Below, in pieces: positions 10,179 through 46,562 of a stretch of 64,000 nucleotides of DNA (its first letter is position 1; every line of letters begins with the position of its first letter). The position numbers and the translations under genes were made by a program. The notes beneath the pieces were generated by a model. That model made no database searches and had not been told where the DNA came from. It was given only the letters and a program-made list of their open reading frames with translations. The stretch comes from Bacteroides eggerthii (lineage in GTDB: Bacteria > Bacteroidota > Bacteroidia > Bacteroidales > Bacteroidaceae): contig NZ_CP102258.1 in assembly GCF_025146565.1 (NCBI RefSeq), forward strand, positions 930,001 to 994,000. Reading direction: 5' to 3'.

Positions 10179-10880
10179 TTATATCTTCTTCTTAATGGCT
10201 TTTACCCAGATTTTATAGCCTTCTTCCTTTAGATGCAGTCCGTCGGTTGTCAGATCTGCTCGTAACACATTGCTTCCTTTTTCTGTGAACAGAGGAAAGA
10301 GATTGATGTATGTCAGGCCTTTTTCTTTGGCAAGAGCTTCTAACTGTTTATTGATTTCGGGTATCATACTTGTTTTTCCCGTCAGCCTTTTATAGCGGCC
10401 GAAACTCTCGTTGATGGGAAGCAGGCTTTGCAGGTAGAGTCTGGTGTCGGGAGATTCCTTCCGAATGCGTTCTACCGTTGTGCGAATCATGCTGACAATA
10501 CTGTCACTTGTCAGGCCATGGGAGATGTCGTTCACACCGATAAGGAGGAATAATTTGGCAGGATGTCCCGGCAATATTTGGTGGAGACGGTCGTATACAC
10601 CCATCACTTCATCGCCGATGATGCCGCGGTTGCGTACATGCTTGTTACCGAGGCGGGCAGCCCAATTACCACCGTTTTCTGTCAGGCTGTTACCTAACAT
10701 TACGATGTCCTTGTTGCTGATAGGAGCTTCGTCCATGAACTGAATGAACCGTTTGTAGTAATGTTCTGTATATATACGCAGAGTAGGGTGCGCTTGTTCG
10801 GGGACTACATGTTGCAATGGTTGCGCAATGGTTATTTGTAGTCCGCAGAAAAGGAAAAGAAAACTTAGATATGTTCTCAT
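10179..10880 (-). CDS. SGNH/GDSL-family hydrolase (secreted esterase)
   Basis: This is an exported 233-residue esterase-type hydrolase with a signal peptide ending near IAQ (residue 20). All four SGNH blocks are visible: GNSLT with nucleophile Ser65, Gly86/Gly89 in NRGIIGDEV as oxyanion donor, Asn117 in LIGVNDISHG, and Asp213/His216 in DGLHLKEEGY. The family removes acetyl or acyl groups from glycans or lipids. It is the last gene of the leftward array, 37 bp after murQ and 36 bp before the terminator. That context suggests a role on O-acetylated peptidoglycan or released amino sugars, but the substrate is inferred from position only. Related Bacteroides proteins are often annotated only as GDSL-like lipases. 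Confidence 0.88.
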   Translation of the reverse strand: MRTYLSFLFLFCGLQITIAQPLQHVVPEQAHPTLRIYTEHYYKRFIQFMDEAPISNKDIVMLGNSLTENGGNWAARLGNKHVRNRGIIGDEVMGVYDRLHQILPGHPAKLFLLIGVNDISHGLTSDSIVSMIRTTVERIRKESPDTRLYLQSLLPINESFGRYKRLTGKTSMIPEINKQLEALAKEKGLTYINLFPLFTEKGSNVLRADLTTDGLHLKEEGYKIWVKAIKKKI

Positions 10881-10917
10881 AATGGTAGCAGGATTAGAGG
10901 TAAAAGATTATAGATCG

Positions 10918-11733
10918 TCACTCCTTAATTCGATAAGCATCTGCGGCTTTTTTCACAGAGCCATGCATGAGTAAGAGAGCTTTGGCTTTTCCATAATCAA
11001 GTCCTAATTCTTCGACCAACATACGTGTTCCGCGATCTACCAGTTTCTTGTTGCTAAGTTGCATGTTTACCATTTTGTTACCTTTTACACGCCCCAATTG
11101 TATCATTACGGAAGTGGTAATCATATTGAGAATCATCTTCTGCCCTGTACCCGATTTCATTCGGGAGCTTCCCGTAACATATTCCGGGCCTACAATCATT
11201 TCAATGGCTACGTCTGATTCCGCTGCCATTGGAGAGTCGGGGTTACTGGTGATGCAGGCTGTCAGAATCCCATGTTCGCGTGCTTCATGCAGTGCGCCGA
11301 TTACGTAGGGGGTAGTACCGGATGCAGCTATGCCGATGACCGTATCTTTATCCGTAATATTGCGTTCTACGAGTTCCTCCCAACCACGTTGCATGTCATC
11401 TTCCGCATTCTCCACCGGGTTGCGTAGGGCTGTGTCACCACCGGCTATCAGGCCGATAACCAATGTTGGCGGCATGCCGAATGTCGGTGGAATTTCGGAA
11501 GCGTCGAGCACGCCAAGGCGTCCGCTTGTACCGGCACCCATGTAGAAAATACGTCCGCCCTGTTTCATGCGGGGAACTATCTGCGTCACTAACTTCTCTA
11601 TTTGAGGTATTGTTTTTTGTATGGCAAGCGCCACTTTTTGATCTTCTCTGTTGATGTCTACCAGTATTTCATGGACGGACTTTTTTTCCAGGTCGTTGTA
11701 GAGCGAGGGTTGCTCTGAAATTTTTATAAACAT
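10918..11733 (-). CDS. murQ: N-acetylmuramic acid 6-phosphate etherase
   Basis: MurQ is a cytoplasmic lyase that splits the D-lactyl ether of MurNAc-6-P to give GlcNAc-6-P and D-lactate, the key step of MurNAc catabolism. The 271-residue protein is one SIS-type sugar-isomerase domain. MGAGTSGRLGVLDASEIPPTFG forms the phosphosugar-binding loop and IAASGTTPYVIGALHEA the second SIS motif, and GSSRMKSGTGQKMILNMITT is the MurQ/GCKR signature. It is about 25 residues shorter than E. coli MurQ, with a brief C-terminal helical tail. It lies 52 bp downstream of a BadF-type kinase that could supply its phosphorylated substrate. The call is firm, and it anchors the interpretation of the whole array. Confidence 0.95.
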   Translation of the reverse strand: MFIKISEQPSLYNDLEKKSVHEILVDINREDQKVALAIQKTIPQIEKLVTQIVPRMKQGGRIFYMGAGTSGRLGVLDASEIPPTFGMPPTLVIGLIAGGDTALRNPVENAEDDMQRGWEELVERNITDKDTVIGIAASGTTPYVIGALHEAREHGILTACITSNPDSPMAAESDVAIEMIVGPEYVTGSSRMKSGTGQKMILNMITTSVMIQLGRVKGNKMVNMQLSNKKLVDRGTRMLVEELGLDYGKAKALLLMHGSVKKAADAYRIKE

Positions 11734-11785: not shown

Positions 11786-12631
11786 TTACTTTCCGCTATG
11801 ATATTTAATCAGTCCTTCCATTGGACTCTTAATGATAGTGCCCAACTGGATATTCATTTCCTGTGCAGCTTCTGCTAATATTGTTTTATAATAGAAAGCT
11901 ACCGAACCGATAAAGTGTACTTTGCTATTACGGAAGTTCTCATATTGCATGACATTGCGTTTGAGGAATGATTTGAAACTTCCCAGTACCAACGCATGTA
12001 TGCAAGGTTCATCTATGTTCTGTGCGAGGAAAGGCGAAAGGCTCGCAAGAAAACGGTTAGGAAATGGTTTGCGATAAACGCGGTCTATAATGTCGGCAGG
12101 TGTCAGGCCGAACTGTTTGAGAAATTTCTCCTTCAATTCGGGAGTCATCTGGTTTTTCAGTATATCACCTACCAATAACTTGCCCAGTACGGCACCGCTG
12201 CCTTCGTCTCCAAGTATGAATCCCAACGGGGACACATTGGAAACAATCTGCTTTCCATCATAATAGCAAGAATTGGAGCCTGTACCCATAATACAGGCAA
12301 TGCCGGCCTCGTGTTGGCAGAGTCCATGAGCAACAGCAAGCATATCTGTATTGACTTCTACCTCTCTCTTTATTTGGAGATGCTTGGTAATGGCGCGGTG
12401 GACCATAGCTATTTTATCGGGAAATCCGCATCCTGCACCATAGAAATATACGGCATCCAATGCATTTGTTTTTAACTGAGGCAACAATGATGTTGCGATC
12501 TCATTGCTGATTTCCTCTTCCGACTGAAAGAAAGGGTTAATTCCTTTCGTGGATATCTGTTGGATGGGTTGTCCGTTTTCTACAACACACCAATCGGTTT
12601 TTGTAGAGCCACTGTCTGCTATTAGAATCAT
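11786..12631 (-). CDS. BadF/BadG/BcrA/BcrD-type amino-sugar kinase (MurNAc or GlcNAc kinase candidate)
   Basis: This is a cytoplasmic ASKHA-fold kinase of 281 residues. The N-terminal phosphate-1 loop is LIADSGSTKTDWCVV, CIMGTGSNSCYYDG is the second phosphate loop, and GDEGSGAVLGK is the adenosine-side motif. The family includes human NAGK and the MurNAc kinase MurK of Tannerella forsythia. Placed directly before murQ, it most likely phosphorylates MurNAc (or GlcNAc) at O6. A paralogue of nearly equal length, with the same motifs and closely similar N- and C-terminal segments, is encoded at 36885-37733. Which of the two prefers MurNAc is not readable. Confidence is high for the family and moderate for the substrate. 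Confidence 0.88.
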   Translation of the reverse strand: MILIADSGSTKTDWCVVENGQPIQQISTKGINPFFQSEEEISNEIATSLLPQLKTNALDAVYFYGAGCGFPDKIAMVHRAITKHLQIKREVEVNTDMLAVAHGLCQHEAGIACIMGTGSNSCYYDGKQIVSNVSPLGFILGDEGSGAVLGKLLVGDILKNQMTPELKEKFLKQFGLTPADIIDRVYRKPFPNRFLASLSPFLAQNIDEPCIHALVLGSFKSFLKRNVMQYENFRNSKVHFIGSVAFYYKTILAEAAQEMNIQLGTIIKSPMEGLIKYHSGK

Positions 12632-12722: not shown

Positions 12723-13913
12723 TTATATTTTTATATAAATCTTCCGTTTGTAGAGCTGGTAGCCGATGCACCAGTTTATGCCGACGAACAACAGCGCATA
12801 GGCCAGTGAACCGCCGGTTTCACCGAATATCGGCATCAGCAATATCTTATATAGGAATGTGTGTATACTGATGCTGCTTTCTCCCCATGGGAAGCAGATG
12901 CTGCCGAAGAGAATACTAAGCACGCCTCCCAATACATACATGAACAGGGGGTTGACGCCGAATGATTCGAAGAACAGGCTCCATTTCTTATAGCCTTTTA
13001 CATCGATAATCCAGATGAGCAGTGCCAGGAAGCTGGAAGCCAACCCGCATGTTGTGAGAACGAAGGTAGGCGACCAAATCTTTTTGTTGATTGGGCATCC
13101 GTAACTCAACAAGAAACCGGAGAATGTAAGGATAGTGCCTACTAAAAGCAATTTGATGAGATGTGAGTTGAGCATGCTTTCACGATCTTCATTGGCTTTG
13201 CCCCCTTCGAGCATCATGCGTCCCACACAGAAGCCCAGCAGTACATGGGCTATGGCGGGAATGGTACTTAAGAGGCCTTCCGGATCGATGCCGTTGTCCT
13301 TGTACATGTGTGCTGGGGTCAGGATAGTGCGGTCTACGATAGAAAGTATGTTCGTATCGTTATAGGCAAATCCATTGCCACATAGCAATAGGATGAAATA
13401 TCCTGTCAGAAGAGTGGCGATAAGATACGGGATGTTCTTGTGCTTCATGGTCAGGGCAATGATAGCGGTAGCGCCATAGCAGAGAGCCAGACGTTGCATG
13501 ACACCCAGAATACGGATACGGTCGAACGTCCATACGGATTCCCATAGTTGCGTGCCGAAACTGATGCCTTCGGTGGGAGAGGTCCAATAATAACAGAACT
13601 TCGAGAACCAGCCGATAGCCATACCTATGAGGAAGATAAGTATGGTGCGTTTTAAGATTTTTATGCCGGCGGCATGACTGAATTCAAAATTATATTTCTT
13701 CAAAGAAATGTACGTGGAAATCCCCATGATGAACATAAAGAAAGGGAACACAAGGTCGGTGGGGGTAAGGCCGTTCCATTCCGCATGGCGCAAGGGGGCG
13801 TAAATATGTGCCCATGTGCCCGGATTGTTGACCATGATCATTCCCGCAATGGTGACTCCCCGGAGGATGTCAAGGGCAAGAATACGTTTGTTTGTTTTTA
13901 CTGCATTACTCAT
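12723..13913 (-). CDS. DUF5009 / NagX-like acyltransferase-fold membrane protein
   Basis: This is an inner-membrane protein of 396 residues with about ten to eleven hydrophobic spans. The N-terminus RILALDILRGVTIAGMIMVNNPG followed by WNGLTPTDLVFPFFMFIMGIS is the hallmark of the DUF5009/heparan-alpha-glucosaminide acetyltransferase-like family, often labelled NagX and linked to GlcNAc uptake. Its catalytic or transport mechanism in bacteria is not settled. Here it lies between a lactate-dehydrogenase-like gene and the kinase-murQ pair, which suggests amino-sugar transport or transmembrane acetylation. The murT-murK-murQ locus of T. forsythia places an inner-membrane MurNAc transporter beside the kinase and etherase; whether this protein is the MurT homologue I cannot verify here. 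Confidence 0.85.
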   Translation of the reverse strand: MSNAVKTNKRILALDILRGVTIAGMIMVNNPGTWAHIYAPLRHAEWNGLTPTDLVFPFFMFIMGISTYISLKKYNFEFSHAAGIKILKRTILIFLIGMAIGWFSKFCYYWTSPTEGISFGTQLWESVWTFDRIRILGVMQRLALCYGATAIIALTMKHKNIPYLIATLLTGYFILLLCGNGFAYNDTNILSIVDRTILTPAHMYKDNGIDPEGLLSTIPAIAHVLLGFCVGRMMLEGGKANEDRESMLNSHLIKLLLVGTILTFSGFLLSYGCPINKKIWSPTFVLTTCGLASSFLALLIWIIDVKGYKKWSLFFESFGVNPLFMYVLGGVLSILFGSICFPWGESSISIHTFLYKILLMPIFGETGGSLAYALLFVGINWCIGYQLYKRKIYIKI

Positions 13914-13931
13914 AATTTCAGGTGTGTTAAG

Positions 13932-16838
13932 TTAGTCTTGGGTTGTTGTCAAAGGTTGTGTGCATTGATCTACGAGGTAGGCAATGGACACATATGGGAT
14001 ACCGGAGTTGGTTGTCAGTCCGATTTCACAGGTGCGGCTGTTGGAGTAACCGATGCCGATGCCGGCAGCCTCTATCTGTGGACGGAGCTTACGTAGGGCG
14101 TAGGTATTCAGTTCGGGATACGTGAAGCCTCGGTCGCCGGCAAAGCCGCAGCAACCTACCTCTTCCGGCACGATGACCTTTGTGGAGCAGAGCTGTGCCA
14201 GGGCTATGATTGTATCGGCCAGTCCCATTTTACGCATGGAGCAGGTTATGTGGACTGCTATGGGTCGGTCAATGGGAGTGAATGACAGCTTGTCGCGCAG
14301 GAATGTGTATATGAACTCTGCCGGTTCATAAAGTTTCATTTTTTGAATGGTGCTGCGCATGCGGTGCAGACATGGGCTTTGGTCGCACAGGACAGGGTAT
14401 TTCCCTTCTTCGCTGGCTTCCCAAAGCGCTGCTTCCAGTTCGGTTGTTTTGCGGTTGGCTATGTCGAGCATGCCTTTGCTCTCCCAGATTGTGCCGCAAC
14501 AGAGCTTTTCCATGTTTTTAGGGAAGATGACTTCGTAACCGCCTTTTTGGAGCAGGGCGATCATTTTGTTGACCAGCGGCTGTTCCATAGGAGATTTCTT
14601 GGGCAGCCCCATCGTTTGGTTGATGCAACTGGGGAAGTAGACTACTTTATTTCCGGCTTTTAATTCTTTAGGTTTGAATTTGTAGGGCTTTGGCATTGCC
14701 GGAGTCCATAGGGGGATGCCGAGGGCATTGTGCATGCCTTTGGTGATACTGCTCATCGCTTTTGTTCCCAAAATGGAATGGCCGAGGTCTGCCAGTCCTA
14801 ATATAGGTCGCAGTGCGCTTTTGATACCTGCAAAATGGTTGGCGGCAAAATTTCCGGCTTTATAGCCTAAACTGCCTTGCGGTAATTCTTCCTGGCGGAT
14901 GATGTGCGTAAGGTCACCTGTATTGATTCCCATAGGGCAAGACATGGAGCACAGTCCGTCTCCGGCACAAGTCCGGTTTCCGGGGTAGAGATATTGCTTT
15001 TCCAACAAGGCCAGACGTTCAGGAGCATCGCCATTCTGCCGGAGACGGGCAATCTCTCTTTGCAGTACGATGCGTTGTCGCGAGGAAAGGGTGAAACCGC
15101 AGGAAAGGCAGTTCACTTCACAAAAGCCACATTCAATGCAGCGGTTCACTTTGGCAGCAGGGCTTTTCGCATCTAAGGGTATGAGAGGAAGCGGTTTGAA
15201 GTTCTTTATATGGCATTTCGGGTCATCATTGAAGATAACGCCCGGATTCAACAAGCCCTGTGGGTCAAATAGCTTTTTAACGGCTTTCATTACTTCGTAG
15301 GCGGAGTCTCCCCATTCGTAACGAACAAAGGGAGCCATGTTGCGTCCTGTACCATGTTCCGCCTTCAGAGAACCATCGTATTTGTCCACCACCAATGTTT
15401 TGACATCGTTCATCAGCTCCTCGTAACGCTTTACTTCGGCGTCACTGCCAAAGGACTGGTTGAGGATGAAGTGATAGTTACCTTCCAACGCATGTCCATA
15501 TATACAGGCGTCTTCGTAACCATGCCGGGCGATGAGTTGCTGTAACTCGGCGGTTGCCTCGGGCAAATCTTCGATGTGGAAAGCCACATCTTCGATGAGA
15601 CAGGTTGTTCCCGGTTTTCGCGTTCCGCCTACGGAAGGGAAGATACCGGAACGGATAGCCCAGTATTGTGAATATTCCTCGGGTTTGTCTGTGAAGCGTA
15701 TAGGCGTATAGGTTCGGAAGTGAGAGAGACAATGTTCTATTGCACCGATATTCCGTTTCAGTTCTTCGTCTGTGCGGGCTTTGGTTTCGGTCAGTACGGC
15801 AGTCAGTCCGGTTTCGTCTCCCGGTTCTATGCCGGGCAGGGGAGATGAACATATTTCTCCTCTGTATTTCAGGAATATGGGGTCGCTGACCGATGCCAGG
15901 GACTTCCAATCCAGTAGTTCTGCTCCTTTTACAATCCACCCGCCGTTGTTGTCCGTCAGCTTCTTCATGGCCACTACGGCACGACAAGCGTCTTTTATAG
16001 TCTTGAAGTAGAGCATGGCGCTTGCCTTGCAGGGATAGTCGTACTCTGTTTTCATGGTGACCTGCGAAAGGAATGCCAATGTTCCTTCCGAACCAACCAT
16101 AAGGTGAGCTATGATATCGAACGGATCGTCAAAGCGGATGAAAGGAAGGAGGTTCAGTCCTGTTACGTTCTTGATGGAATATTTGTAATGAATACGCTCG
16201 GATAGTTTCTCATCGGCGCGTACTTCATCGCGAAGCGTACAAATCCGGCGCAAGAAATCGCGGTGTGTCACTTCGAATGCGGCGCGGCTGACGGCATCTC
16301 CGGTGTCAAGCACCGTTCCGTCTGCCAAAACAATACGGGCGGAAAGAAGCACCTTGTCACTGTTGGCGTGTGTGCCGCAGTTCATGCCGGAAGCGTTGTT
16401 CATGACGATACCGCCCACCATGGCGCTTTTGACGGAAGCTGGGTCCGGAGCGAACTTCCTCCCGAAAGGGGCTAACAGCTCATTGACCCGTTGACCGATG
16501 ATGCCGGGTTGCAGGGTAATTTCCTCATGGTCGGCGGAAAGGCTGTATTGTTCCCAGTGTTTGCCGGCTACGATGAGTATGGAGTCACTGATGGCTTGTC
16601 CGGAAAGGCTGGTTCCTGCCGCTCGGAAAGTTACGGGCAGGTGGTGGTGACCGGCTAGTTTCAGTAATCGGGAAATCTCTTCTTCTCCCTCCGAGCGGAT
16701 TACGATTTGCGGGATGAGGCGGTAAAAACCTGCGTCCGTTCCCCATGCCAGTCGGCGGAGTTCATCGGTGTAGATCCTTTCTTGCGGGATGAACTGTTTC
16801 GCTTCCTGCAGGAAAGCCATGTAGTTACTCTGTTTCAT
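13932..16838 (-). CDS. FAD/4Fe-4S oxidoreductase, D-lactate dehydrogenase (Dld-II)-like
   Basis: This is a large cytoplasmic-side flavo-iron-sulfur dehydrogenase of 968 residues. The ATG at 16838 (MKQSNYMAFLQEA) is preferred; an open extension to 16943 overlaps a dispersed repeat and has no protein-like character. The order is an FAD_binding_4 domain (PVTFRAAGTSLSGQAISDS), a GlcD-type FAD oxidase C domain (GHALEGNYHFIL, EHGTGRNMAPFVRYEWG), two ferredoxin-type clusters (CIECGFCEVNC, then CAGDGLCSMSCPMGINTG) and two CCG domains (PSCINQ with CCGTIWES, then CSMRKMG with CCGFAGDRGF). The layout matches FeS D-lactate dehydrogenases such as Shewanella Dld-II, and also YdiJ (D-2-hydroxyglutarate). 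Two genes from murQ, whose product is D-lactate, the lactate assignment is favoured by context. Confidence 0.88.
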   Translation of the reverse strand: MKQSNYMAFLQEAKQFIPQERIYTDELRRLAWGTDAGFYRLIPQIVIRSEGEEEISRLLKLAGHHHLPVTFRAAGTSLSGQAISDSILIVAGKHWEQYSLSADHEEITLQPGIIGQRVNELLAPFGRKFAPDPASVKSAMVGGIVMNNASGMNCGTHANSDKVLLSARIVLADGTVLDTGDAVSRAAFEVTHRDFLRRICTLRDEVRADEKLSERIHYKYSIKNVTGLNLLPFIRFDDPFDIIAHLMVGSEGTLAFLSQVTMKTEYDYPCKASAMLYFKTIKDACRAVVAMKKLTDNNGGWIVKGAELLDWKSLASVSDPIFLKYRGEICSSPLPGIEPGDETGLTAVLTETKARTDEELKRNIGAIEHCLSHFRTYTPIRFTDKPEEYSQYWAIRSGIFPSVGGTRKPGTTCLIEDVAFHIEDLPEATAELQQLIARHGYEDACIYGHALEGNYHFILNQSFGSDAEVKRYEELMNDVKTLVVDKYDGSLKAEHGTGRNMAPFVRYEWGDSAYEVMKAVKKLFDPQGLLNPGVIFNDDPKCHIKNFKPLPLIPLDAKSPAAKVNRCIECGFCEVNCLSCGFTLSSRQRIVLQREIARLRQNGDAPERLALLEKQYLYPGNRTCAGDGLCSMSCPMGINTGDLTHIIRQEELPQGSLGYKAGNFAANHFAGIKSALRPILGLADLGHSILGTKAMSSITKGMHNALGIPLWTPAMPKPYKFKPKELKAGNKVVYFPSCINQTMGLPKKSPMEQPLVNKMIALLQKGGYEVIFPKNMEKLCCGTIWESKGMLDIANRKTTELEAALWEASEEGKYPVLCDQSPCLHRMRSTIQKMKLYEPAEFIYTFLRDKLSFTPIDRPIAVHITCSMRKMGLADTIIALAQLCSTKVIVPEEVGCCGFAGDRGFTYPELNTYALRKLRPQIEAAGIGIGYSNSRTCEIGLTTNSGIPYVSIAYLVDQCTQPLTTTQD

Positions 16839-16919
16839 AACGTATAATTTGTTACTGTCATGCATGTTTCCGTATACTCTCGTCGGGATGTGCTGTGAAG
16901 CGCATTTGCGGAGTGAAGG

Positions 16920-38156: not shown

Positions 38157-41100
38157 ATGAATGAAGATCGCAGAAAGCGAGGATTTGTGCACAGCAATTT
38201 CCTCACAGCAGTAGCAATCAGCACCCTGTTTTTAGGCAGTGGCAATGCGATGGCTGCTCAAACGGATACCGACATCTCTTTAGGAGTGACAGAGCAATTG
38301 CAAATGCAAACTATAACCGGACTGGTGGTAGATGCAAATGGTGAACCTGTCATCGGAGCCAGTGTCGTAGAGAAGGGAACTACAAATGGCGGTATAACCA
38401 ATATTGACGGCAAGTTTACGCTGAATGTGAAGCCGGGAGCCGTTTTGAAAGTTTCGTTCGTTGGTTATCAGACTGAGGAGGTAAAAGCCACGAGAACAAT
38501 GAAAATTGTTTTGAAGGAGGACAGCGAGATGCTTTCCGAAGTTGTAGTCGTGGGTTACGGTACACAAAAGAAGGCCAATCTTACGGGAGCCGTAGCGACG
38601 GTCGATGTAAACAAGGCATTGGATAGCCGCCCTATTGCCGATGTGGGGCGCGGACTTCAAGGTTCGGTGGCAGGTGTCAATGTCACAATTCCTACGGGTG
38701 AAATCGGTTCGGACCCGTTGATAAAAATTCGTGGTCAAGTAGGTTCTATCAAAGGTGGTAGCAGTCCGCTTATTTTGTTGGACAATGTGGAGATTCCGAG
38801 TATTCAGATGGTGAATCCGGATGATATTCAATCCATTTCAATTTTGAAGGATGCGGCTTCCTCCTCTATTTACGGTGCGAAGGCAGCTTTCGGTGTAGTG
38901 TTGATTACTACGAAAAAGGGAGCGCAAGGAGATAAGTTCGAAGTGAGCTATTCCAATAACTTCTCTTGGCAGGACCCCGCCAAGAAAATTGAAATCGGAG
39001 GCATAGAGGCACTGCAATATACGCTGGATGCGCAGATCAACAGAAATGAGCCTATGCCTGCCGGTGGTTTTTGGCGTATCAATGAAGAAAGTTTGGAGAA
39101 AGCTAAAGAATGGCAGCGGTTATATGGCGGGAAAGTAAATTGGAACGATCCTGTGGTATATGGGCGTGACTGGTATTTCGATGGATCGCAGAAATATGGA
39201 TACCGAACCTATGACGGAGCTAAGGCAATGATTAAGAATTGGGCCCCGACCATGACGCATAATCTGTCTGTAAGTGGAAAGAGTGGAAAGACTACCTATA
39301 ACATAGGTTTGGGCTATCTGGACCAGAGCGGCATGTCAAGAACGGCGAAGGAGGATGATTTCAAACGATATAATGCTTCGGTCAGCGTTTCTTCGGAACT
39401 CAACAAATACATTACGGTGAGAGCCAGCTCTATCTACTCCGACCGCAACAAACGCTATCCGGGCATCGGTAATACGGCTGCTGACCCTTGGTTGTATCTT
39501 TACCGTTGGAGCCCGTTGATGCCGATGGGGGTAACGGAGCATGGCAATCCGTTGAAAGAGCCTACCTATGAAATGGCGGCTTCCAATACTGATAATTTGC
39601 AGAATAAGTATTATAACATCAATTTAGGATTTACGCTGAATCTCACCAAGAACTGGGATGTCAAGTTCGACTATACGTATGACAAGCAGTCTACCGAAAC
39701 CAATTCTTCGGTAACGCAATACAATGCCGGTGAGATGTGGTACTCGCCAACACCATGGATTGAAAACGGCAGCCAGGTATATGTCAACGAACTTGGAGAG
39801 AGAGTGGACACCGGCGGCATGCCCGCCTATCGTTTTCCGGTGGGGCCTTATTACAACAGTTCGGGTCCTCAGACAAGTCAGGTGGCAACCAAGAACAGAT
39901 CGGTGGACAACAACACCATTAATGTTTATACTACCTACAACCTGCAACTCGGTGCAGAGAAGCAGCATGCTTTCAAGTTTATGGCAGGTATGAACAGGGT
40001 GACCAATAAATGGAGTTCATCAAAGGGCACCATAAACGATCTGATAGACTTGGAGAACCCGCAATTTCCGTTTGCCGTAGGCGACCAGTTCTTTGAAGGA
40101 GACCGTAACTGGGAATCTCAACTGGGCTTCTTCGGACGTCTCAACTATGCTTTTGAAGACAAATACTTCCTCGAAGCCAATATACGCAGGGATGGCTCAT
40201 CCAAATTCCCCGATCATCTGAAATGGAAATGGTTCCCCTCTTTCTCCGCCGGTTGGGTATTTACCAGTGAGGAATTCATGAAACCCATTGAGAACATCCT
40301 GAGCTTCGGTAAGTTCAGGGCATCTTGGGGTAGCATCGGTGACCAGACGGTATCCAATACATTGTATAAGTCTGTATTGGAAGGAGGACAGTCTACTTGG
40401 CTGGGCGGTAACGGCAATAAACTGCCTTTGTTCGGAACTCCTACGCTGGTGGACAGTGACATTAGCTGGCAGCAGATCGAAACGCTGGACTTCGGTATTG
40501 ACTTGCGGTTCTTTAACAATAAGTTTGGCGTGACTTTCGATTGGTACAGACGGGATACAAAAGACATGCTTGTGGGTGGTGAAAGCCTACCGGTGACACT
40601 GGGCACTACTGCTCCGGTGGGCAACTACGGTAGCTTGAGGACCAAAGGCTGGGAATTGTCGGCCGACTTCAACCATCGTTTCTCTAACGGATTGGGCATC
40701 AATGCTATGGCATCTATATCCGATGCAACTACCCACATAACCAGAGGCGCTGACTATCTGACGCCATGGGAAGACCGTAAGCTGGGTTCTGAATTCTCTA
40801 CCGGAAGCCGATACGGCGATATTTACGGTTTGGTAACAGACAGGCTGTTCCAAAAAGAGGACTTCGTTTATGGAGAGGATGGAAAGATAGAGAAAGTGAC
40901 CGTTGTCTATAATGGAACGGCTCGCGAAACGAACAAACAGTCTTCCAAGTATCCTGTATATCAGGTGCACTATGAAGACGGCAACAAGATTGTCTTTGCT
41001 CCCGGTGATGTTAAGTTCGTAGATTTGGATGGCGATGGCTACATCACTCCGGGTACGGGTACAAACGGTGATCCGGGCGATGTGACCGTTATCGGTAATA

Positions 41101-41642
41101 CCACTCCCCGCTATGAATACAGTTTCCGTTTGGGTGCCGACTATAAAGGTATCGATTTCTCCATCTTCTTCCAGGGCATTGGCAAACGCCAGATCTGGGG
41201 TAGCGGACAATTGGCCATTCCGGGTTTCAATGCCAAAGAAGGGGCTATGCCCAAGACTTTTACCACCAACTATTGGACGGAAGAGAATACGGATGCTTTC
41301 TATCCCAGAGCTTGGGATTTGGGAGGCAACGATACCGGATTCAGCATGCAGAAGCAGTCACGCTATCTGCTTGACATGTCCTACTTAAGAATCAAGAACA
41401 TTACGTTGGGATATTCCGTACCCAGAAATCTGTTGTCCAAAGTATACCTGACGAAAGCCAGAATCTATATGTCACTGGAGAATTTCTTCACATTTGATAA
41501 TCTGGACGGACTGCCTATCGACCCGGAAGCTGTGTCGGGCTATTCCATGTTCAGAACTGATGAAAGATATAATCTTGGACGCACCGGTACGGGTACACCG
41601 GTATTTAAGAGCATATCATGCGGTATTCAACTAACCTTCTAA
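38157..41642 (+). CDS. SusC/RagA family TonB-dependent outer-membrane receptor
   Basis: This is a full-length SusC-like transporter of 1161 residues. The signal region (MNEDRRKRGFVHSNFLTAVA to GNAMAAQ) is almost the same as that of the divergent susC at 33069-36479. The CarboxypepD-like domain (ITGLVVDANGEPVIGASVVE), the plug start (SEVVVVGYGTQKKANLTGAV) and the plug motif (SPLILLDNVEIPSIQMVNPDDIQSISILKDAASSSIYGAKAAFGV) follow. After the plug the two proteins diverge, so substrate range should differ. The barrel ends in SCGIQLTF. It is followed 12 bp later by a susD gene and then by a lipoprotein and a GHL10 glycosidase, a complete small utilisation locus. No HTCS or anti-sigma gene is adjacent. 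Confidence 0.95.
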   Translation: MNEDRRKRGFVHSNFLTAVAISTLFLGSGNAMAAQTDTDISLGVTEQLQMQTITGLVVDANGEPVIGASVVEKGTTNGGITNIDGKFTLNVKPGAVLKVSFVGYQTEEVKATRTMKIVLKEDSEMLSEVVVVGYGTQKKANLTGAVATVDVNKALDSRPIADVGRGLQGSVAGVNVTIPTGEIGSDPLIKIRGQVGSIKGGSSPLILLDNVEIPSIQMVNPDDIQSISILKDAASSSIYGAKAAFGVVLITTKKGAQGDKFEVSYSNNFSWQDPAKKIEIGGIEALQYTLDAQINRNEPMPAGGFWRINEESLEKAKEWQRLYGGKVNWNDPVVYGRDWYFDGSQKYGYRTYDGAKAMIKNWAPTMTHNLSVSGKSGKTTYNIGLGYLDQSGMSRTAKEDDFKRYNASVSVSSELNKYITVRASSIYSDRNKRYPGIGNTAADPWLYLYRWSPLMPMGVTEHGNPLKEPTYEMAASNTDNLQNKYYNINLGFTLNLTKNWDVKFDYTYDKQSTETNSSVTQYNAGEMWYSPTPWIENGSQVYVNELGERVDTGGMPAYRFPVGPYYNSSGPQTSQVATKNRSVDNNTINVYTTYNLQLGAEKQHAFKFMAGMNRVTNKWSSSKGTINDLIDLENPQFPFAVGDQFFEGDRNWESQLGFFGRLNYAFEDKYFLEANIRRDGSSKFPDHLKWKWFPSFSAGWVFTSEEFMKPIENILSFGKFRASWGSIGDQTVSNTLYKSVLEGGQSTWLGGNGNKLPLFGTPTLVDSDISWQQIETLDFGIDLRFFNNKFGVTFDWYRRDTKDMLVGGESLPVTLGTTAPVGNYGSLRTKGWELSADFNHRFSNGLGINAMASISDATTHITRGADYLTPWEDRKLGSEFSTGSRYGDIYGLVTDRLFQKEDFVYGEDGKIEKVTVVYNGTARETNKQSSKYPVYQVHYEDGNKIVFAPGDVKFVDLDGDGYITPGTGTNGDPGDVTVIGNTTPRYEYSFRLGADYKGIDFSIFFQGIGKRQIWGSGQLAIPGFNAKEGAMPKTFTTNYWTEENTDAFYPRAWDLGGNDTGFSMQKQSRYLLDMSYLRIKNITLGYSVPRNLLSKVYLTKARIYMSLENFFTFDNLDGLPIDPEAVSGYSMFRTDERYNLGRTGTGTPVFKSISCGIQLTF

Positions 41643-41654: not shown

Positions 41655-43517
41655 ATGAAACTAAAAATATATGCAGTTTTAACCTGTATCATCTTCTTGT
41701 TCTCCAATTGCAATGATGTGCTCGACCGCCCTTCATTGACATCGGCCGAAGATGCTGCCTATTGGACCAGCGAGTCGAGAGTGCGCTTGTATGCCAACGC
41801 TTTCTATTCCAACTTCTTTGTGGGCTATGGAGTGGGTTATGAAACCACTTATGCTCCCAACGCCAATTATACCTTTAATGATGATGCGGTGATTAGATCC
41901 ACCCAGAGGAACTTCAACCGTTCGGTTCCTACCAGCAAGGGAAGTACATCCTTGGACATTAAATGGGAGAGTGAGTTTACAGGCCCGACCTGGAATTTCG
42001 CTTGGGTCAGAAAAGCCAATATCATGCTTGCCCGTATCGACAGTGAGATGACGAATATATTGACCGAAGAACAGTATAACCATTGGACGGGTATCGGACG
42101 CTTCTTCAGGGCATTGGAATATGCGCGTCTTGTAAACGTGTTCGGTGATGTGCCCTATTATGACACAGAGGTGCTGAATACCGATAAAGATGCCCTGTAC
42201 AAAGACCGTACTCCAAGAAACGAGGTAATGGATGCCGTTTATGATGATTTTGACTTTGCGATGCAGAACGTCCGTAAGAGCGACGGTGCGCAAAATGTAG
42301 ACCGCTATGTGGTGGCCGCTTTCGTTTCGCGTTGGGCATTGTTCGAAGCAAGCTGGCAGAAGTATTACTATAAGGACAATGAACGTGCCAAGAAGTTCTT
42401 TGAGCAGGCCATTACGGCAGCGGATATTGTAATGGGCAGCGGCAAATACGCCATCGACGTGGATTTCCGTGCGCTGTTCGGTTCGATGAAGGCCCCCGGA
42501 AAAGAATGTATCTTATATCGTACTTATGATGCCGGCCAGAAGGTGACGCACTCCATTGCATTGAATTGCAATCCGCAGAACTCCACCGATGTAGGTCCGA
42601 ACCTTGATTTGATAAAGTCGTTCATCTGTACGGACGGCAAAGATTATCAGACTTCCGGACTGGATGATGCCGATGACTTTACGTTGAGCAACCTCATCAA
42701 GACAAGAGACCCGCGCTTTGAAGCGAGTTTCTATGAAAAGCCGGTGCCTACGGCAAAGAGTTGTTATTTGTTTGTAACCAAGTTTATACCGCGAAGCGCT
42801 TTGGATTTTTTGAAAATAGAGGGCGGCACCATAGCTCCTGAGTTCTCGGGCAGCAGCAACGTGACCGGTTATCCGGTTATCCGTTATGCCGAAGTGCTCT
42901 TGAACTGGATTGAAGCAAAGGCGGAACTTGCAACATTGGGCGGAACGGCGGTTATTCAGGATGACATTGATGTTTCTATCAATAAGATTCGCGAGAGACC
43001 GATAGCGCCCGAAGCGAAGAAGCTGGGAGTTACCCGCACTGCTGATATGGACCTCGCCGACCTTCCGGACGATCCCCGCAGAGATCCTTCTGTATCAAAA
43101 CTGCTTTGGGAGATCAGGCGTGAACGTCGTATGGAGTTTGCATTTGAGTTCTCGCGTATTATCGATCTGAGACGTTGGGGCAAGTTGGAATACATGGATA
43201 CTGAAAAGAATAAGGACTTGTTGGCAGGTACTTGGGTGAATTTTGCCGAAGAGGTGAGCGATGAGCTGAAAGATGAAAATAAGGGCAAAATCCGGGTAAT
43301 GGACAAGCAGGGCAACTTCATCGTGTTCGACGGTAAGAACAAGGATAAGATGAAAGGTTTCTTCTATCCCGCAGAGAATTTGGGGAGATTGAAGTTCTTG
43401 AATGTTCCTAATGTCAATCCGTACCTTTCGCCTATCGGTACTAACCAGATTGCGGACTACCAAAGCAGAGGATATACGCTGACGCAGACCGAAGGCTGGC
43501 CTACCGGCTTGGAATAA
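41655..43517 (+). CDS. SusD/RagB family glycan-binding lipoprotein
   Basis: This is a surface lipoprotein of 620 residues, somewhat long for SusD. The lipoprotein signal ends at LFSNC (Cys19), followed by NDVLDRPSLTSAEDAAYW. GRFFRALEYARLVNVFGDVPYYD is the conserved helix and GYPVIRYAEVLLNWIEAKAELATLGG the later repeat. LLWEIRRERRMEFAFEFSRIIDLRRWG is the C-terminal signature. It partners the SusC gene 12 bp upstream. Extra length near residues 540-580 (DELKDENKGKIRVMDKQGNF) forms a charged insertion before the C-terminus. The ligand is unknown; the neighbouring GHL10 enzyme suggests an amino-sugar glycan. Confidence 0.94.
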   Translation: MKLKIYAVLTCIIFLFSNCNDVLDRPSLTSAEDAAYWTSESRVRLYANAFYSNFFVGYGVGYETTYAPNANYTFNDDAVIRSTQRNFNRSVPTSKGSTSLDIKWESEFTGPTWNFAWVRKANIMLARIDSEMTNILTEEQYNHWTGIGRFFRALEYARLVNVFGDVPYYDTEVLNTDKDALYKDRTPRNEVMDAVYDDFDFAMQNVRKSDGAQNVDRYVVAAFVSRWALFEASWQKYYYKDNERAKKFFEQAITAADIVMGSGKYAIDVDFRALFGSMKAPGKECILYRTYDAGQKVTHSIALNCNPQNSTDVGPNLDLIKSFICTDGKDYQTSGLDDADDFTLSNLIKTRDPRFEASFYEKPVPTAKSCYLFVTKFIPRSALDFLKIEGGTIAPEFSGSSNVTGYPVIRYAEVLLNWIEAKAELATLGGTAVIQDDIDVSINKIRERPIAPEAKKLGVTRTADMDLADLPDDPRRDPSVSKLLWEIRRERRMEFAFEFSRIIDLRRWGKLEYMDTEKNKDLLAGTWVNFAEEVSDELKDENKGKIRVMDKQGNFIVFDGKNKDKMKGFFYPAENLGRLKFLNVPNVNPYLSPIGTNQIADYQSRGYTLTQTEGWPTGLE

Positions 43518-43569: not shown

Positions 43570-44994
43570 ATGTATAAACTAATAAGAAATATTGGATTTG
43601 CAGTCGTATCACTGGGGCTTGGCATGGCTTCTTGTGATGAGGACTATCCTAAAAGCCATATAGAGCCTTATGATACCGAACTCCTTTCAATCAAAATACT
43701 TAATGCCGGAGCCAACGGTGACAAAGTGGTGGAAGGAACGATTGATGAAGCAAAGAAGACGATCAATTTCCCCCGTCTGGATGTGGAAACCGACTTCTCG
43801 GCTTTAAGTATAGAAGCCGAACTTTCCGAAGGAGCTGCATTGCAGAGCGAAGTAATGGATTATTCCATGGATGCGGAGACGAATGAAAAGACACAGGTGC
43901 TTAGAATTATCAATCATAACAGATACAAGGACTATCTGATGAAAGTCAGAAAAAGAGTTCCGGTATTTGGTGCTGATTTTGAAAAGCCGACGGTGTATAA
44001 TTTTTCGGGAGATAATATTTATAGTGATTTTGCTACTAATTATACCCGATGTGCTTCGTATGACGGTGAACATGTATTAGTGGTCAGTAGGCCAACTACT
44101 CCTAATTTCCATACTCCCCATCTCCTTAAGGTTTCAGATTTGAAAAGGGGAGAAATCAAACCGATCATGTTAGATGTAACAGGTGTAAAAGGGGGAACTT
44201 ATGACTACAACATGGGGGCATTGATTAATGGACATGTGTATCTTTCAAGTCTGTCCGGAGGTAAGGTTTCGCCTTTTAAAATTTATTATTGGGAAACGCC
44301 GACTTCTAATCCGGAGGTAATAGCGAATATTAACGTGGGAAATATTCCCGGAGCAGGGAACAGACATGGTGATAATGCCTCTTATAATATTGATGAAAAC
44401 GGTAATGGCTTTATCTTCTTTGGAGACAATGCTGCTACTGAATTTTTAAAGGTTCCTATAAGTGGACATAAAACGGTTGATATTGGTAATATTAAAGTTT
44501 TACCTTCAAAATCAGATGCAACAATGGTGACAAATGTATATAGAGTCGGTGATACGGATCAGTATTTATGGTCAGGTATCAGAGTGCCTGTTACATTGGT
44601 TGATGAATCGCTTGGGGAAAAATATAAATCAAAAATAGCAGGAGAAGCTGTTGCTCCAAAGGTTGTTACATTCAATGAGGAACGCTATTTATTGGTTTGT
44701 ACGGCTGGACAAGGAGCTGCTTCTAAAGCTTCTATTGCTTTGGAAGTTTATGATTTAACCAAAGGAGAAACCATCGAAGATGCATTGAAAAAGTTTGATG
44801 AGGGAGAGAATCATAACCCTATTTACCAATTTAAACTGGGGGGAAGTGGAAACGGAAATGCTTTAGCTCAGACGGATTATTACATAGAGAAAGATGAAAA
44901 CGGGAAAGATGCAAAGCTTTGTCTATTTGCGTCGCGTACTCAATCCGGATTTGTTATCTGTGAATTCCCCATCAAGCAAGAGGAAATGGATTGA
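43570..44994 (+). CDS. Lipoprotein of unknown function (DUF4623-like), candidate surface glycan-binding protein
   Basis: This is a 474-residue lipoprotein; the signal peptide ends at GMASC (Cys22) and is followed by DEDYPK. Residues 35-130 resemble the DUF5018-like beta-sandwich seen at the N-terminus of several Bacteroides surface lipoproteins (LLSIKILNAG, VVEGTIDEAKKTINFPRLD, FSALSIEAELSEGA). The remainder, from DFEKPTVYNF on, is rich in beta strands with repeated blade-like segments (HLLKVSDLKRGE, NGNGFIFFGDNAATEFLKV, IALEVYDLTKGE), suggesting a propeller. I recall similar proteins being called DUF4623, but I cannot verify that here. It lies 52 bp after susD and 98 bp before the GHL10 gene, the usual place for a surface glycan-binding protein. 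No catalytic motif is visible. Confidence 0.65.
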   Translation: MYKLIRNIGFAVVSLGLGMASCDEDYPKSHIEPYDTELLSIKILNAGANGDKVVEGTIDEAKKTINFPRLDVETDFSALSIEAELSEGAALQSEVMDYSMDAETNEKTQVLRIINHNRYKDYLMKVRKRVPVFGADFEKPTVYNFSGDNIYSDFATNYTRCASYDGEHVLVVSRPTTPNFHTPHLLKVSDLKRGEIKPIMLDVTGVKGGTYDYNMGALINGHVYLSSLSGGKVSPFKIYYWETPTSNPEVIANINVGNIPGAGNRHGDNASYNIDENGNGFIFFGDNAATEFLKVPISGHKTVDIGNIKVLPSKSDATMVTNVYRVGDTDQYLWSGIRVPVTLVDESLGEKYKSKIAGEAVAPKVVTFNEERYLLVCTAGQGAASKASIALEVYDLTKGETIEDALKKFDEGENHNPIYQFKLGGSGNGNALAQTDYYIEKDENGKDAKLCLFASRTQSGFVICEFPIKQEEMD

Positions 44995-45092
44995 TGCTTT
45001 ATCTTTTTGTAGGATTAAATAATTTATAATGTTTACTTGGGAGCCGTCTGATCTGTTTTAATTGGGCGGCTTCTTCTTCTAAAACCAAAATA

Positions 45093-46562
45093 ATGAAATA
45101 CTTAAAATATATAACTCTGGTTGCTCTTCTTGCATTTGCCGTCTCTTGTAGCAAGGACGACGATGGAGAGAATATGCCTCCGGAGCCCACACCACCGGTA
45201 GAAAAACCTGAACCGCAGGCTGTAACCTTACCCCAAAAAGAATTGCGCGGTGCATGGATCACTACCGTATGGGGCATTGACTGGCCGATGGAAGATTACA
45301 ATGCCGCTACTCAGCAAAAGAAATATACGGATTATTTGGATTTGTTGGTTGCCAATAACATGAATGCTGTATTCTTCCAGATACGCGGAATGGCGGATGC
45401 CTTTTACGAGTCGCAGTATGAGTCGTGGAGTAAGAACATAACCGGTACTGCCGGAAAAAATCCGGGCTATGATGTTTTGGGTTTCCTTGTAGAGGAGGCC
45501 CACAAACGGGGACTCCAGTTTCATGCCTGGATGAATCCTTACCGCATCTCTACAAGGGCAAGCAAGAACAGTTCTTTTGCTGAACTTGACACCAAAATTC
45601 CGGTAGCGTGGACTAAGGACTATAACAAAATCCGCATCTACAACCCCGCCATGCCCGAAGTGCAGACCCGTATTATGGATATCGTCAAAGAAATCATAAC
45701 CAAATACGATGTAGACGGCATCCATATGGATGATTATTTCTACCCTTCGCTGGAAGAAGGCGAAAGCATGAATGATAATGCGGAATATGAGAAATATGGC
45801 AAAGACAAGTTTAAGAGTATTGAGGAATTCAGACGAAACAATGTGGATGTAGTGATACAAAACATTCAGAAGGTTATCATAGATACCAAACCCGGCGTGA
45901 TCTTTTCCGTAAGCCCTGCGGCAAATATAGACAACAATTACAGCAAGCTGTTTGCCGATGTCAGGAAATGGCTGAAAGAAGGGTGGGTGGATGTAATCAT
46001 TCCTCAATTGTACTTCGCTACGGGGACAGGGAAAAACAGCTTCAACCAGTTTCTTGATCAGTGGATGCAGTATGTCAACCAAACCCATTGCCTGATAGGT
46101 TATGGCATTTATAAATTTGGCAGTACCGATCCTGACTACGGCAACGCTTTTCACTCCTCTGCCGACCTGAAGAGCCAGTTCGAATATGCAAGCAAGAAGT
46201 CGAAAGTGAACGGCAGTGTTTTGTACAGCATCAAAGATATGGTAGCGAATAAAGTAGGTATCGGAACTGCCATTAAGGAGATATACAAGAAAAAAACGGT
46301 AATTCCCTATTTGGGGCGGACAGAGGCGAAATTGCCCTCTACTCCCGTCAAGGTCAGGACGGATGGCGGAAACTTGTCTTGGGAAGCGGTGTCCGGCGCT
46401 TATTATGCCGTATACAAAAGCAATGGAGAAGGGAAGTTGGCTACTCTCGTGGGAACTACCAGGGAGACTTCTTTCAAGCTGCCCGGCAAAGGGACTTATT
46501 GTGTCACAGCGCTGGATAAAGCCAATGCAGAAAGCAGGATTTCAGAGCTGGTAACTTATTGA
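45093..46562 (+). CDS. GHL10 (DUF187) family glycoside hydrolase lipoprotein, DigH/YddW-like
   Basis: This is a 489-residue lipoprotein (signal ending AVSC, Cys19). The TIM-barrel of the GHL10 family starts at KELRGAWITTVWGIDWP and continues with NNMNAVFFQIRGMADAFYES, GLQFHAWMNPYRIS, YDVDGIHMDDYFYP, VIFSVSPAANID and WVDVIIPQLYFATG. Around residue 420 it ends in a short FnIII-like tail (LPSTPVKVRTDGGNLSWEAV). E. coli DigH (YddW) of this family cleaves denuded peptidoglycan glycan strands. That activity fits the nearby amidase, SpoIID-like and NamZ-like genes, but it is inferred by family. A weak hairpin (AGCCGTC with GGCGGCT, about 45042-45072) precedes the gene. It is the last gene of the rightward SusCD locus. 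Confidence 0.88.
   Translation: MKYLKYITLVALLAFAVSCSKDDDGENMPPEPTPPVEKPEPQAVTLPQKELRGAWITTVWGIDWPMEDYNAATQQKKYTDYLDLLVANNMNAVFFQIRGMADAFYESQYESWSKNITGTAGKNPGYDVLGFLVEEAHKRGLQFHAWMNPYRISTRASKNSSFAELDTKIPVAWTKDYNKIRIYNPAMPEVQTRIMDIVKEIITKYDVDGIHMDDYFYPSLEEGESMNDNAEYEKYGKDKFKSIEEFRRNNVDVVIQNIQKVIIDTKPGVIFSVSPAANIDNNYSKLFADVRKWLKEGWVDVIIPQLYFATGTGKNSFNQFLDQWMQYVNQTHCLIGYGIYKFGSTDPDYGNAFHSSADLKSQFEYASKKSKVNGSVLYSIKDMVANKVGIGTAIKEIYKKKTVIPYLGRTEAKLPSTPVKVRTDGGNLSWEAVSGAYYAVYKSNGEGKLATLVGTTRETSFKLPGKGTYCVTALDKANAESRISELVTY

Follow-up and report, generated by a model that had tools for sequence, protein, structure and literature searches.

Does the 36-kb block at positions 10179 to 46562 of the window (the whole 64,000-nt stretch of Bacteroides eggerthii DNA analysed here) encode one route for peptidoglycan salvage, and is such a locus new? 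A sequence-only reading had proposed a full pathway from denuded murein outside the cell to GlcNAc-6-P inside, extending beyond the murTKQ unit of Tannerella.

Gene content of the block

The block holds 21 genes:

10179..10880, minus: GDSL-type lipase/acylhydrolase, signal-peptide-like N-terminus, final gene of the run (PF13472, E 2.8e-21)
10918..11733, minus: MurQ, MurNAc-6-phosphate etherase (TIGR00274, 310.7 bits, over the equivalog cut-off of 302; 83% identity to T. forsythia MurQ)
11786..12631, minus: MurK-type MurNAc kinase, BadF-type (63% identity to T. forsythia MurK; PDB 1zxo E 5e-124, 8oqw E 5e-114, 8ow9 E 2e-113)
12723..13913, minus: MurT-type membrane protein, HGSNAT_cat/DUF5009 (PF07786, 37.9 bits; 64% identity to its T. 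forsythia counterpart, encoded between NamZ and MurK)
13932..16943, minus: FAD-oxidase and Fe-S/CCG protein, candidate D-lactate dehydrogenase (PF02913 E 1.2e-44, PF01565, PF13183, PF02754)
16984..18267, minus: NamZ1, exo-beta-N-acetylmuramidase family, signal-peptide-like N-terminus (PF07075 E 7.6e-86, PF20732; 76% identity to T. forsythia NamZ)
18277..19599, minus: AmpG-type muropeptide permease (TIGR00901, 170.7 bits, under the curated cut-off of 350; 50% identity to T. forsythia AmpG)
19627..20958, minus: SpoIID/LytB-domain protein, cytosolic type, without signal peptide (PF08486 E 1.3e-24, 87.1 bits over a cut-off of 23)
20987..21919, minus: DUF4922, GalT/Ap4A-phosphorylase fold, presumed nucleotide-transferring enzyme (PF16269 E 9.7e-67)
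21929..23389, minus: GT2 glycosyltransferase without signal peptide (PF00535 E 3.1e-22)
23422..25302, minus: metallophosphoesterase with PQQ/BamB-type propeller, secreted-type (PF00149, PF13360)
25333..28422, minus: amidase, secreted-type, Amidase_3 fold split by a golvesin domain, elsewhere annotated xanthan lyase (predicted structure)
28440..29894, minus: sodium/solute symporter, SSS (PF00474 E 4.8e-25)
29952..31118, minus: NamZ2, exo-beta-N-acetylmuramidase family, signal-peptide-like N-terminus (PF07075 E 3.2e-75; PDB 4jja E 1e-224)
31355..33046, minus: SusD1, lipoprotein-type (PF07980 E 5e-30)
33069..36479, minus: SusC1, TonB-dependent transporter (PF07715, PF13715, PF00593)
36885..37733, minus: K1058-type second MurNAc kinase, BadF-type (73% identity to its T. 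forsythia counterpart at the K1058 position; PDB 8oqk E 1e-139, 8ow7 E 4e-139)
38157..41642, plus: SusC2 (TIGR04056, 820.8 bits)
41655..43517, plus: SusD2, lipoprotein-type (PF07980 E 1.6e-26)
43570..44994, plus: DUF4623, lipoprotein-type, candidate surface glycan-binding protein (PF15416 E 2e-134)
45093..46562, plus: GHL10, lipoprotein-type, candidate surface glycan-strand hydrolase or lytic transglycosylase (PF02638 E 1.7e-69; Cwp19, PDB 5oq2, E 2e-76)

All families named by the sequence-only reading are present: MurQ, two BadF-type kinases, the DUF5009 protein, two NamZ, AmpG-like, SpoIID, SSS, two SusCD pairs, GHL10 and the amidase-like protein. The D-lactate-dehydrogenase-like protein, DUF4922, GT2, metallophosphoesterase/PQQ, DUF4623 and GDSL lipase were not on its list. 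Gaps between genes from NamZ2 to the GDSL gene are 9 to 91 bp with the SpoIID start placed at ATG 20958 (the ORF opens at 21051), and 236 bp lie between NamZ2 and SusD1. Scans for promoters and terminators gave counts close to chance: 46 against 38.4 (sd 6.7) for the former and 19 against 15.7 (sd 4.1) for the latter. NamZ1 and NamZ2 each carry NamZ_N and NamZ_C, with all four domains over cut-off.

The amidase assignment was borne out by structure re-alignment of the predicted model, which displays an Amidase_3 fold interrupted by the golvesin domain. H162, E185, H496 and E579 are invariant in 33/33 aligned sequences and are read from the pattern as the putative Zn ligands His/Glu/His and the catalytic Glu. 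A PF01520 profile search gave no match at E 0.001, and the protein is therefore claimed as an amidase by fold and not as a PF01520 member; its own profile matched one Amidase_3 protein weakly (E 0.09). Foldseek with the whole model found no amidase among the top 50 matches, a probable effect of the split domain. The "xanthan lyase" label was rejected: at E 0.1 a sequence search of the PDB matched only 6f2p, and there only the golvesin part. In P0093 the metallophosphoesterase/PQQ protein is fused to the amidase.

The protein at 13932-16943 is a candidate D-lactate dehydrogenase by family and position. Its best PDB relatives are LctD (7qh2), glycolate oxidase (9qgz) and mitochondrial D-lactate dehydrogenase (8jdc), with D-2-hydroxyglutarate dehydrogenase also among the relatives, and it falls below the NCBIfam cut-offs of every listed match. 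The gene adjoins MurT in 23/23 named loci holding both, and D-lactate is a product of MurQ, encoded in the same run.

Relationship to the Tannerella forsythia operon

The order amidase-GT2-DUF4922-SpoIID-AmpG-NamZ-MurT-MurK-MurQ is that of a T. forsythia operon, with proteins 50 to 83% identical, and in the window it is broken only by the PQQ/metallophosphoesterase and D-lactate-dehydrogenase-like genes. Neither gene was found within the 20.9-kb T. forsythia stretch that was read. The claim of novelty beyond murTKQ thus fails, since the nine-gene amidase-to-murQ operon has been published (Tanf_08345-08385; PMC5388701, PMC7670621), as has the second kinase K1058 upstream of it (PMC10465942). 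MurK and MurQ activities, AmpG transport and a single transcript are covered in the T. forsythia papers (PMC5388701, PMC7670621, PMC5790795), where an E. coli muropeptide reporter strain served to assay AmpG (PMC5388701, PMC7670621). There the shared genes are labelled "xanthane lyase" (amidase), "gtf" (GT2 and also DUF4922), "lytB" (SpoIID) and "ybbC" (NamZ). A K1058-type kinase and a SusC upstream of the core are common to both organisms. The window differs in having NamZ2, the symporter, the phosphoesterase/PQQ protein, the D-lactate-dehydrogenase-like gene, the GDSL gene, SusCD1 in the run and the SusC2-SusD2-DUF4623-GHL10 cassette. It also differs in that MurNAc auxotrophy is not indicated for its host, which carries two EPSP-synthase genes at family level, the number expected for AroA plus MurA.

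DUF4922 alignment located 562 named loci, and gene order was counted in the best 80 of these. Same-strand neighbours or fusions were found for GT2-DUF4922 in 71/75 loci with both genes, DUF4922-SpoIID in 62/67, SpoIID-AmpG in 52/60, AmpG-NamZ1 in 39/42 and MurK-MurQ in 33/33. Because pair adjacency recurs in this way, the order of the block is not due to chance. In one same-genus genome (G059) GT2-DUF4922 lies on a contig separate from SpoIID, AmpG, NamZ1 and MurQ. The SusC2-SusD2-DUF4623-GHL10 half of the block is sporadic (DUF4623 in 9/80 genus genomes). The locus is not of a new kind; with fair confidence we read it as the Bacteroides counterpart of the peptidoglycan salvage/recycling locus of Tannerella type.

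The cassette brings the block to two pairs of adjacent SusC and SusD genes with a surface-type hydrolase, the arrangement that defines a polysaccharide utilisation locus (the GHL10 lipoprotein-type N-terminus was read by eye). GHL10 shares its domain with the Cwp19/DigH enzymes and differs from them in being lipoprotein-type and encoded behind SusCD-DUF4623. The cassette could be an independent polysaccharide locus placed here by accident, which we regard as possible but doubtful. Its rarity fits that reading, as do its absence from the asd-to-second-kinase interval of one genome (G179) and its position on a contig without NamZ in 4/9 carriers. In the other 5/9, however, it shares a contig with both NamZ genes, within 37 kb, and GHL10 occurs within the salvage operon of one genome (G133), while three named loci have it following AmpG. 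DUF4623 sits between SusD2 and GHL10 in all nine carriers, the window's own genome included.

SpoIID and the GT2-DUF4922-SpoIID module

In the sequence-only reading SpoIID, the DigH-like GHL10 enzyme and NamZ all act outside on amidase-denuded strands, with SpoIID as an envelope strand-cleaving enzyme. Like the SpoIID lytic transglycosylases, including solved ones, the window's protein matches the family and keeps the catalytic-type Glu118 (the SEM glutamate) and GHGVG, invariant in 22/22 aligned rows. It differs from them in its longer PF08486 span with invariant Cys/His, its tie to DUF4922 and AmpG and its lack of a signal. A hydrophobic N-terminus was present in 0/22 aligned rows (first 32 residues, scored by hydrophobicity only; the peak value, 1.97, lies just under the cut-off of 2.0 chosen by us). 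In the control set it was seen in 0/5 rows of the same class vs 21/24 rows of the other SpoIID class. Only one of 41 SpoIID-bearing ORFs exceeded 2.0 (G169, within a 5' extension before its GT2). SpoIID is fused C-terminally to DUF4922 in 9/50 neighbourhoods, and in five of these GT2 is fused too. Being signal-less and fused in relatives to the cytosolic-type GT2 and DUF4922, SpoIID should therefore not cut denuded strands outside, and an envelope role is highly improbable.

GT2 is fused to DUF4922 in 17/50 neighbourhoods, and the three domains form a single protein of 1230 to 1329 aa in 5/50. The predicted DUF4922 structure (pLDDT 92.6) has yeast Apa2 (4i5t) as best fold match (E 5e-10, TM about 0.6), and H146xH148FQ150 is invariant in 44/44. 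By this predicted fold and the HxHxQ-type motif DUF4922 is a member of the GalT/Ap4A phosphorylase superfamily and presumed to be a nucleotide-transferring enzyme.

Among 149 genomes of the order (36 with DUF4922 and 113 without), AmpG was found in 36/36 DUF4922-bearing genomes vs 17/113 others, an association that holds under pairing on the tree (median p 0.03; gyrB, FastTree, 130 of the 149 genomes, with 19 left out, partly for no full gyrB). The long-span SpoIID class is also in 36/36. AnmK shows the reverse distribution (4/36 vs 94/113), and there was no match in the window's genome. The paired AnmK test was underpowered: supported branches yielded 8 pairs, of which 2.2 ran the opposite way, 0.1 ran the same way and 5.8 showed no difference (median p 0.5). 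Within the two main gyrB clades, counted by eye, DUF4922-bearing and other genomes had AnmK in 0/29 vs 7/15 (p 1.7e-4) and 4/7 vs 71/79 (p 0.04). The idea that the module strictly replaces AnmK is weakened: four DUF4922 genomes keep AnmK, as does Bacteroides ihuae, a named control with both the NamZ2-to-MurQ run and an AnmK match, and the AnmK contrast is only partly phylogeny-controlled. MurQ as the end-point for every DUF4922 carrier is not upheld, a MurQ-grade match (E under 1e-37) being absent in 17/36.

We tentatively suggest a cytosolic GT2-DUF4922-SpoIID machine that could handle imported (anhydro)muro-disaccharides without AnmK. SpoIID might open or cleave the anhydro-MurNAc end and so make it accessible to MurK, while GT2 in reverse and DUF4922 might convert the GlcNAc-MurNAc bond via NDP-GlcNAc to GlcNAc-1-P, or DUF4922 might pass MurNAc to UDP. 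The phosphorolysis would spare ATP, and the scheme as a whole, if true, would account for GlcNAc-anhMurNAc use without AnmK in T. forsythia and most DUF4922-bearing Bacteroidales. Mayer et al. (2020, PMC7670621) state that T. forsythia has no predicted AnmK ortholog and leave its anhydro-MurNAc strategy to be explored. Alternatively, the module builds or trims another glycan, as in protein or surface glycosylation, and merely shares a transcript with the salvage genes. In favour of this, GT2 enzymes form a biosynthetic family. The T. forsythia operon, formerly termed glycosylation-related, is under control of GppX, and surface glycoproteins are affected when GppX is lost (PMC5388701); the carriers without a MurQ-grade match also fit. 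The AmpG association speaks against this reading, which we consider rather unlikely. SpoIID, moreover, is a peptidoglycan-acting domain. The literature matches listed hold no description of the module's function (DUF4922 appears in plant GDP-L-galactose phosphorylase papers), and further papers may hold more. The AmpG-linked module is the novel point of the locus and may be a new wall-sugar recycling route.

Proposed pathway and its meaning

Classical recycling of the E. coli type runs through AmpG, NagZ, AnmK and MurQ. The window shares with it AmpG import, the MurQ etherase and the products D-lactate and GlcNAc-6-P, and differs in having MurNAc kinases instead of an AnmK match and GT2-DUF4922-SpoIID beside AmpG. 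In the pathway we propose, the first steps would take place outside the cell and in the periplasm: the GHL10 lipoprotein would cleave glycan strands, the SusCD pairs would bring in oligomers, the golvesin-amidase would remove peptides and NamZ1 and NamZ2 would liberate MurNAc. Disaccharides would cross the inner membrane via AmpG, and MurNAc via MurT and/or possibly the symporter. MurK and the K1058-type kinase would form MurNAc-6-P in the cytosol; MurQ would split this compound, yielding GlcNAc-6-P and D-lactate, and D-lactate may then be oxidised to pyruvate by the FAD/Fe-S protein. The cytosolic module beside AmpG may handle the AmpG imports. The sequence-only reading is partly supported: the locus is one for peptidoglycan-glycan salvage that leads from the amidase by way of NamZ and the MurNAc importer to MurK and MurQ, without the SpoIID step outside.

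The locus might instead recycle the cell's own wall, which we judge the less probable function. The GT2-DUF4922-SpoIID-AmpG core occurs without SusCD or NamZ in the stretches read of many family genomes (e.g., G222, G152 and G169), and with two EPSP-synthase-family genes the host shows no sign of MurNAc auxotrophy. An external substrate is nevertheless suggested by the two SusCD pairs, the two NamZ of secreted type and the lipoproteins of surface type.

Gut Bacteroides are surrounded by the cell walls of other bacteria. With an amidase, the cutting of glycans, import across the outer membrane and the breakdown of MurNAc gathered in a single locus, and D-lactate oxidation probable, peptidoglycan would become a carbon source open to testing in them. 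The GT2-DUF4922-SpoIID module beside AmpG, which many relatives carry in fused form, is a candidate for part of an anhydro-MurNAc route across much of the order.

Gene content and comparison with the Tannerella forsythia operon

The segment from 10179 to 46562 of the window (930001-994000 of a single-contig 4.2-Mb genome) contains 21 genes by ORF analysis and family scans. The families listed in a sequence-only reading were borne out, and the FAD/Fe-S protein, DUF4922, GT2, PQQ protein, DUF4623 and GDSL genes were added. The genes are arranged as follows:

Minus strand, in transcription order: K1058-type kinase (BadF2), SusC1, SusD1, NamZ2 (29952..31118), symporter, golvesin-amidase, phosphoesterase/PQQ protein, GT2 (21929..23389), DUF4922 (20987..21919)
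Minus strand, continued after DUF4922: SpoIID (19627..20958), AmpG (18277..19599), NamZ1 (16984..18267), FAD/Fe-S protein (13932..16943), MurT-type protein (12723-13913), MurK-type kinase (BadF1), MurQ, GDSL
Plus strand: SusC2, SusD2, DUF4623, GHL10

Intergenic gaps are 9-91 bp from NamZ2 onward, with the SpoIID start set at ATG 20958. Two GH43 genes, one with a CBM6, lie downstream of the locus at 4140-6717. Between GHL10 and asd, a long hairpin of 20 pairs (46611-46658, 7 G-C pairs) followed by a T-rich tail may terminate the plus-strand cassette; overall, the hairpin scan was near chance.

In T. forsythia, Tanf_08345-08385 (xanthane lyase, two gtf, lytB, ampG, ybbC, murT, murK, murQ) is described as one transcript by RT-PCR (PMC5388701). 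Its contig NZ_JUET01000082 was recovered in the DUF4922 search as locus L117, with SusC and a K1058-type kinase on one strand and amidase, GT2, DUF4922, SpoIID, AmpG, NamZ, MurT, MurK and MurQ, in this order, on the other. The second "gtf" is, by its position, the DUF4922 gene. Amino acid identities to the window proteins are 65% (amidase), 72% (GT2), 56% (DUF4922), 73% (SpoIID), 50% (AmpG), 76% (NamZ), 64% (MurT), 63% (MurK), 83% (MurQ) and 73% (second kinase). A gene set beyond murTKQ was therefore already published, and the novelty proposed for the combined locus was too strong a claim. We conclude that the peptidoglycan salvage/recycling locus is real and well conserved, and that it represents a variant of the Tannerella operon and not a new kind of locus. 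Unlike the window, the 20.9-kb T. forsythia stretch lacks NamZ2, the symporter, the PQQ protein and the FAD/Fe-S protein. Structures of MurK and K1058 are given in PMC10465942; among these entries BadF1 best matches MurK (8ow9) and BadF2 best matches K1058 (8ow7). The MurT-position protein (12723-13913; L117:15116-16285) matches HGSNAT_cat/DUF5009 and, at a score below the cut-off, a NagX acetyltransferase model, whereas T. forsythia MurT was placed in the sodium symporter superfamily (PMC5790795); label and domain are in conflict.

Conservation, the proposed D-lactate step and the GHL10 cassette

DUF4922 is present in 103/121 family genomes and 36/149 order genomes; among the named genomes searched, the closest relatives are from Bacteroides clarus (94%) and B. 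propionicigenes (93%), which makes a Bacteroides near these two species the most probable host. Neighbourhoods were fetched for 50 DUF4922 genomes, picked for long contigs and spread over genera, and the best 80 of 562 named loci served as a second sample. The 80 loci contain GT2 (76), SpoIID (68), AmpG (66), MurK-type (44), NamZ1 (42), amidase (41), MurQ (34), MurT (31), FAD/Fe-S (25), NamZ2 (19), symporter (18), PQQ (18), K1058-type (9) and GHL10 (3), counts that are biased towards DUF4922 by the selection and come from loci many of which end at contig edges or the 10-kb flank limit. Adjacency is given below.

Neighbouring gene pairs (best 80 of 562 loci; 50 neighbourhoods; fusions counted)
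GT2-DUF4922: 71/75; 40/44
DUF4922-SpoIID: 62/67; 36/38
SpoIID-AmpG: 52/60; 34/36
FAD/Fe-S-MurT: 23/23; 6/6
MurK-MurQ: 33/33; 13/13

The run from NamZ2 to MurQ is unchanged in order in four of the six same-genus genomes fetched (G202, G179, G254, G221). The other arrangement, in G059 (L053) and G238 (L055), leaves only a fused GT2-DUF4922 between asd and the FKBP/ProRS genes. In G059, SpoIID, AmpG, NamZ1 and MurQ are grouped within about 7 kb on contig C1, NamZ2 is on C7 and DUF4623 on C8.

MurQ yields GlcNAc-6-P and D-lactate (PMC5790795). Between the NamZ1 and MurT genes lies that of a FAD-oxidase/Fe-S protein of 1003 aa. Its relatives include LctD and mitochondrial D-lactate dehydrogenase, and also glycolate and D-2-hydroxyglutarate enzymes, and it falls below the NCBIfam cut-offs of every listed match. 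Its constant position beside MurT points to D-lactate as the substrate and argues for a candidate D-lactate enzyme.

DUF4623 was found in 9/80 genus genomes, and SusD2-DUF4623-GHL10 is contiguous in all nine, own genome included. The cassette shares a contig with both NamZ genes in five carriers (G000, G312, G338, G322, G299), 19-37 kb from NamZ1, and is on a separate contig in four (G059, G316, G318, G328; some are fragmented assemblies). GHL10 is also found in G133, within the salvage operon, and in L158, L165 and L168, where it follows AmpG. From these placements, the cassette is an optional add-on joined to the salvage locus more than once. Its lipoprotein-type N-termini are compatible with surface exposure; the CSKDDD of GHL10 resembles what we take to be a surface-export signal. 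The solved relative of GHL10 is Cwp19, which the title of PMC6016235 calls a lytic transglycosylase.

The GT2-DUF4922-SpoIID module and AmpG

SpoIID (start 20958) has no signal peptide: within the N-terminal 32 residues, none of 22 aligned relatives reaches a hydrophobicity of 2.0, a threshold of our own choosing. As a control, 29 SpoIID proteins from 25 order genomes were scored over every possible start; 0/5 of the window SpoIID class reached 2.0 vs 21/24 of the other class. Among 41 ORFs with a SpoIID domain from the 50 neighbourhoods, the only one to exceed this value is the G169 fusion, and it does so in a 5' extension preceding its GT2 part. The pathway first proposed, from denuded murein outside to GlcNAc-6-P inside, is correct in outline and wrong at its SpoIID step. 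Single GT2-DUF4922-SpoIID proteins occur in 5/50 neighbourhoods (G222, G152, G169, G229, G225), GT2-DUF4922 fusions in 12/50 and DUF4922-SpoIID fusions in 4/50. SpoIID retains the SEM glutamate and GHGVG, and Cys181, 186, 219 and 227 are invariant in 22/22. The predicted DUF4922 fold resembles that of the Ap4A phosphorylase Apa2, with a weaker likeness to GalT, and the HxHFQ of DUF4922 is invariant in 44/44. The module proteins look intracellular, so the module probably acts on substrates imported by AmpG.

The window AmpG shares 77-79% identity with the AmpG proteins of six further Bacteroidales loci in which SpoIID is only 62-67% identical, but 57% with that of B. fragilis, although SpoIID (75%) and NamZ1 (80%) are closer there (L113, L132, L134, L138, L141, L146, L154 compared); it looks to have been swapped in situ. 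AmpG homologues next to the module are either about 420-460 aa or about 560-670 aa long (G007, G015, G041, G059, G072, G109, G133 and others; L119, L168). The long ones, with an HMM match broken at about position 167, seem to carry a large insertion. In Marinilabilia-type and related loci, SpoIID and AmpG flank a signal-peptide GH9-polysaccharide deacetylase fusion, which is a candidate periplasmic glucosaminidase of the pathway; the domain scan covered L158 (12249-14762) and L168 (12600-15059), and L165, L159 and L166 have a gene at the same place.

Across the 149 order genomes, AmpG (E 0.001) was detected in 36/36 DUF4922 genomes vs 17/113 others, three of the latter weakly (G056, G064, G136), and no match passed the curated cut-off. 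The corresponding counts are 36/36 vs 1/113 (G096) for SpoIID with a PF08486 span >320 nt, 4/36 vs 94/113 for AnmK and 19/36 vs 11/113 for MurQ (E <1e-37); Fisher p-values on these tables take no account of kinship. When a gyrB tree of 130 genomes is used, the AmpG-DUF4922 link survives (6.3 pairs in agreement and 0 opposed; median p 0.03), and the AnmK contrast runs in the expected direction but with too few differing pairs; in the two main clades AnmK is found in 0/29 DUF4922 genomes vs 7/15 others and 4/7 vs 71/79.

Since GlcNAc-anhMurNAc(-peptides) sustain T. forsythia, in which no AnmK ortholog is predicted (PMC7670621), the AnmK contrast suggests that the module may be a cytosolic route independent of AnmK. 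Against this, some module carriers also have AnmK (the control genome B. ihuae has both AnmK and DUF4922), and T. forsythia growth is described as only restricted on free anhMurNAc (PMC7670621). GT2 also belongs to a biosynthetic family, and MurQ (E <1e-37) was not seen in about half of the module carriers. Moreover, we know of no SpoIID that opens anhydro-MurNAc. What deserves experiment in this locus is the module next to AmpG.
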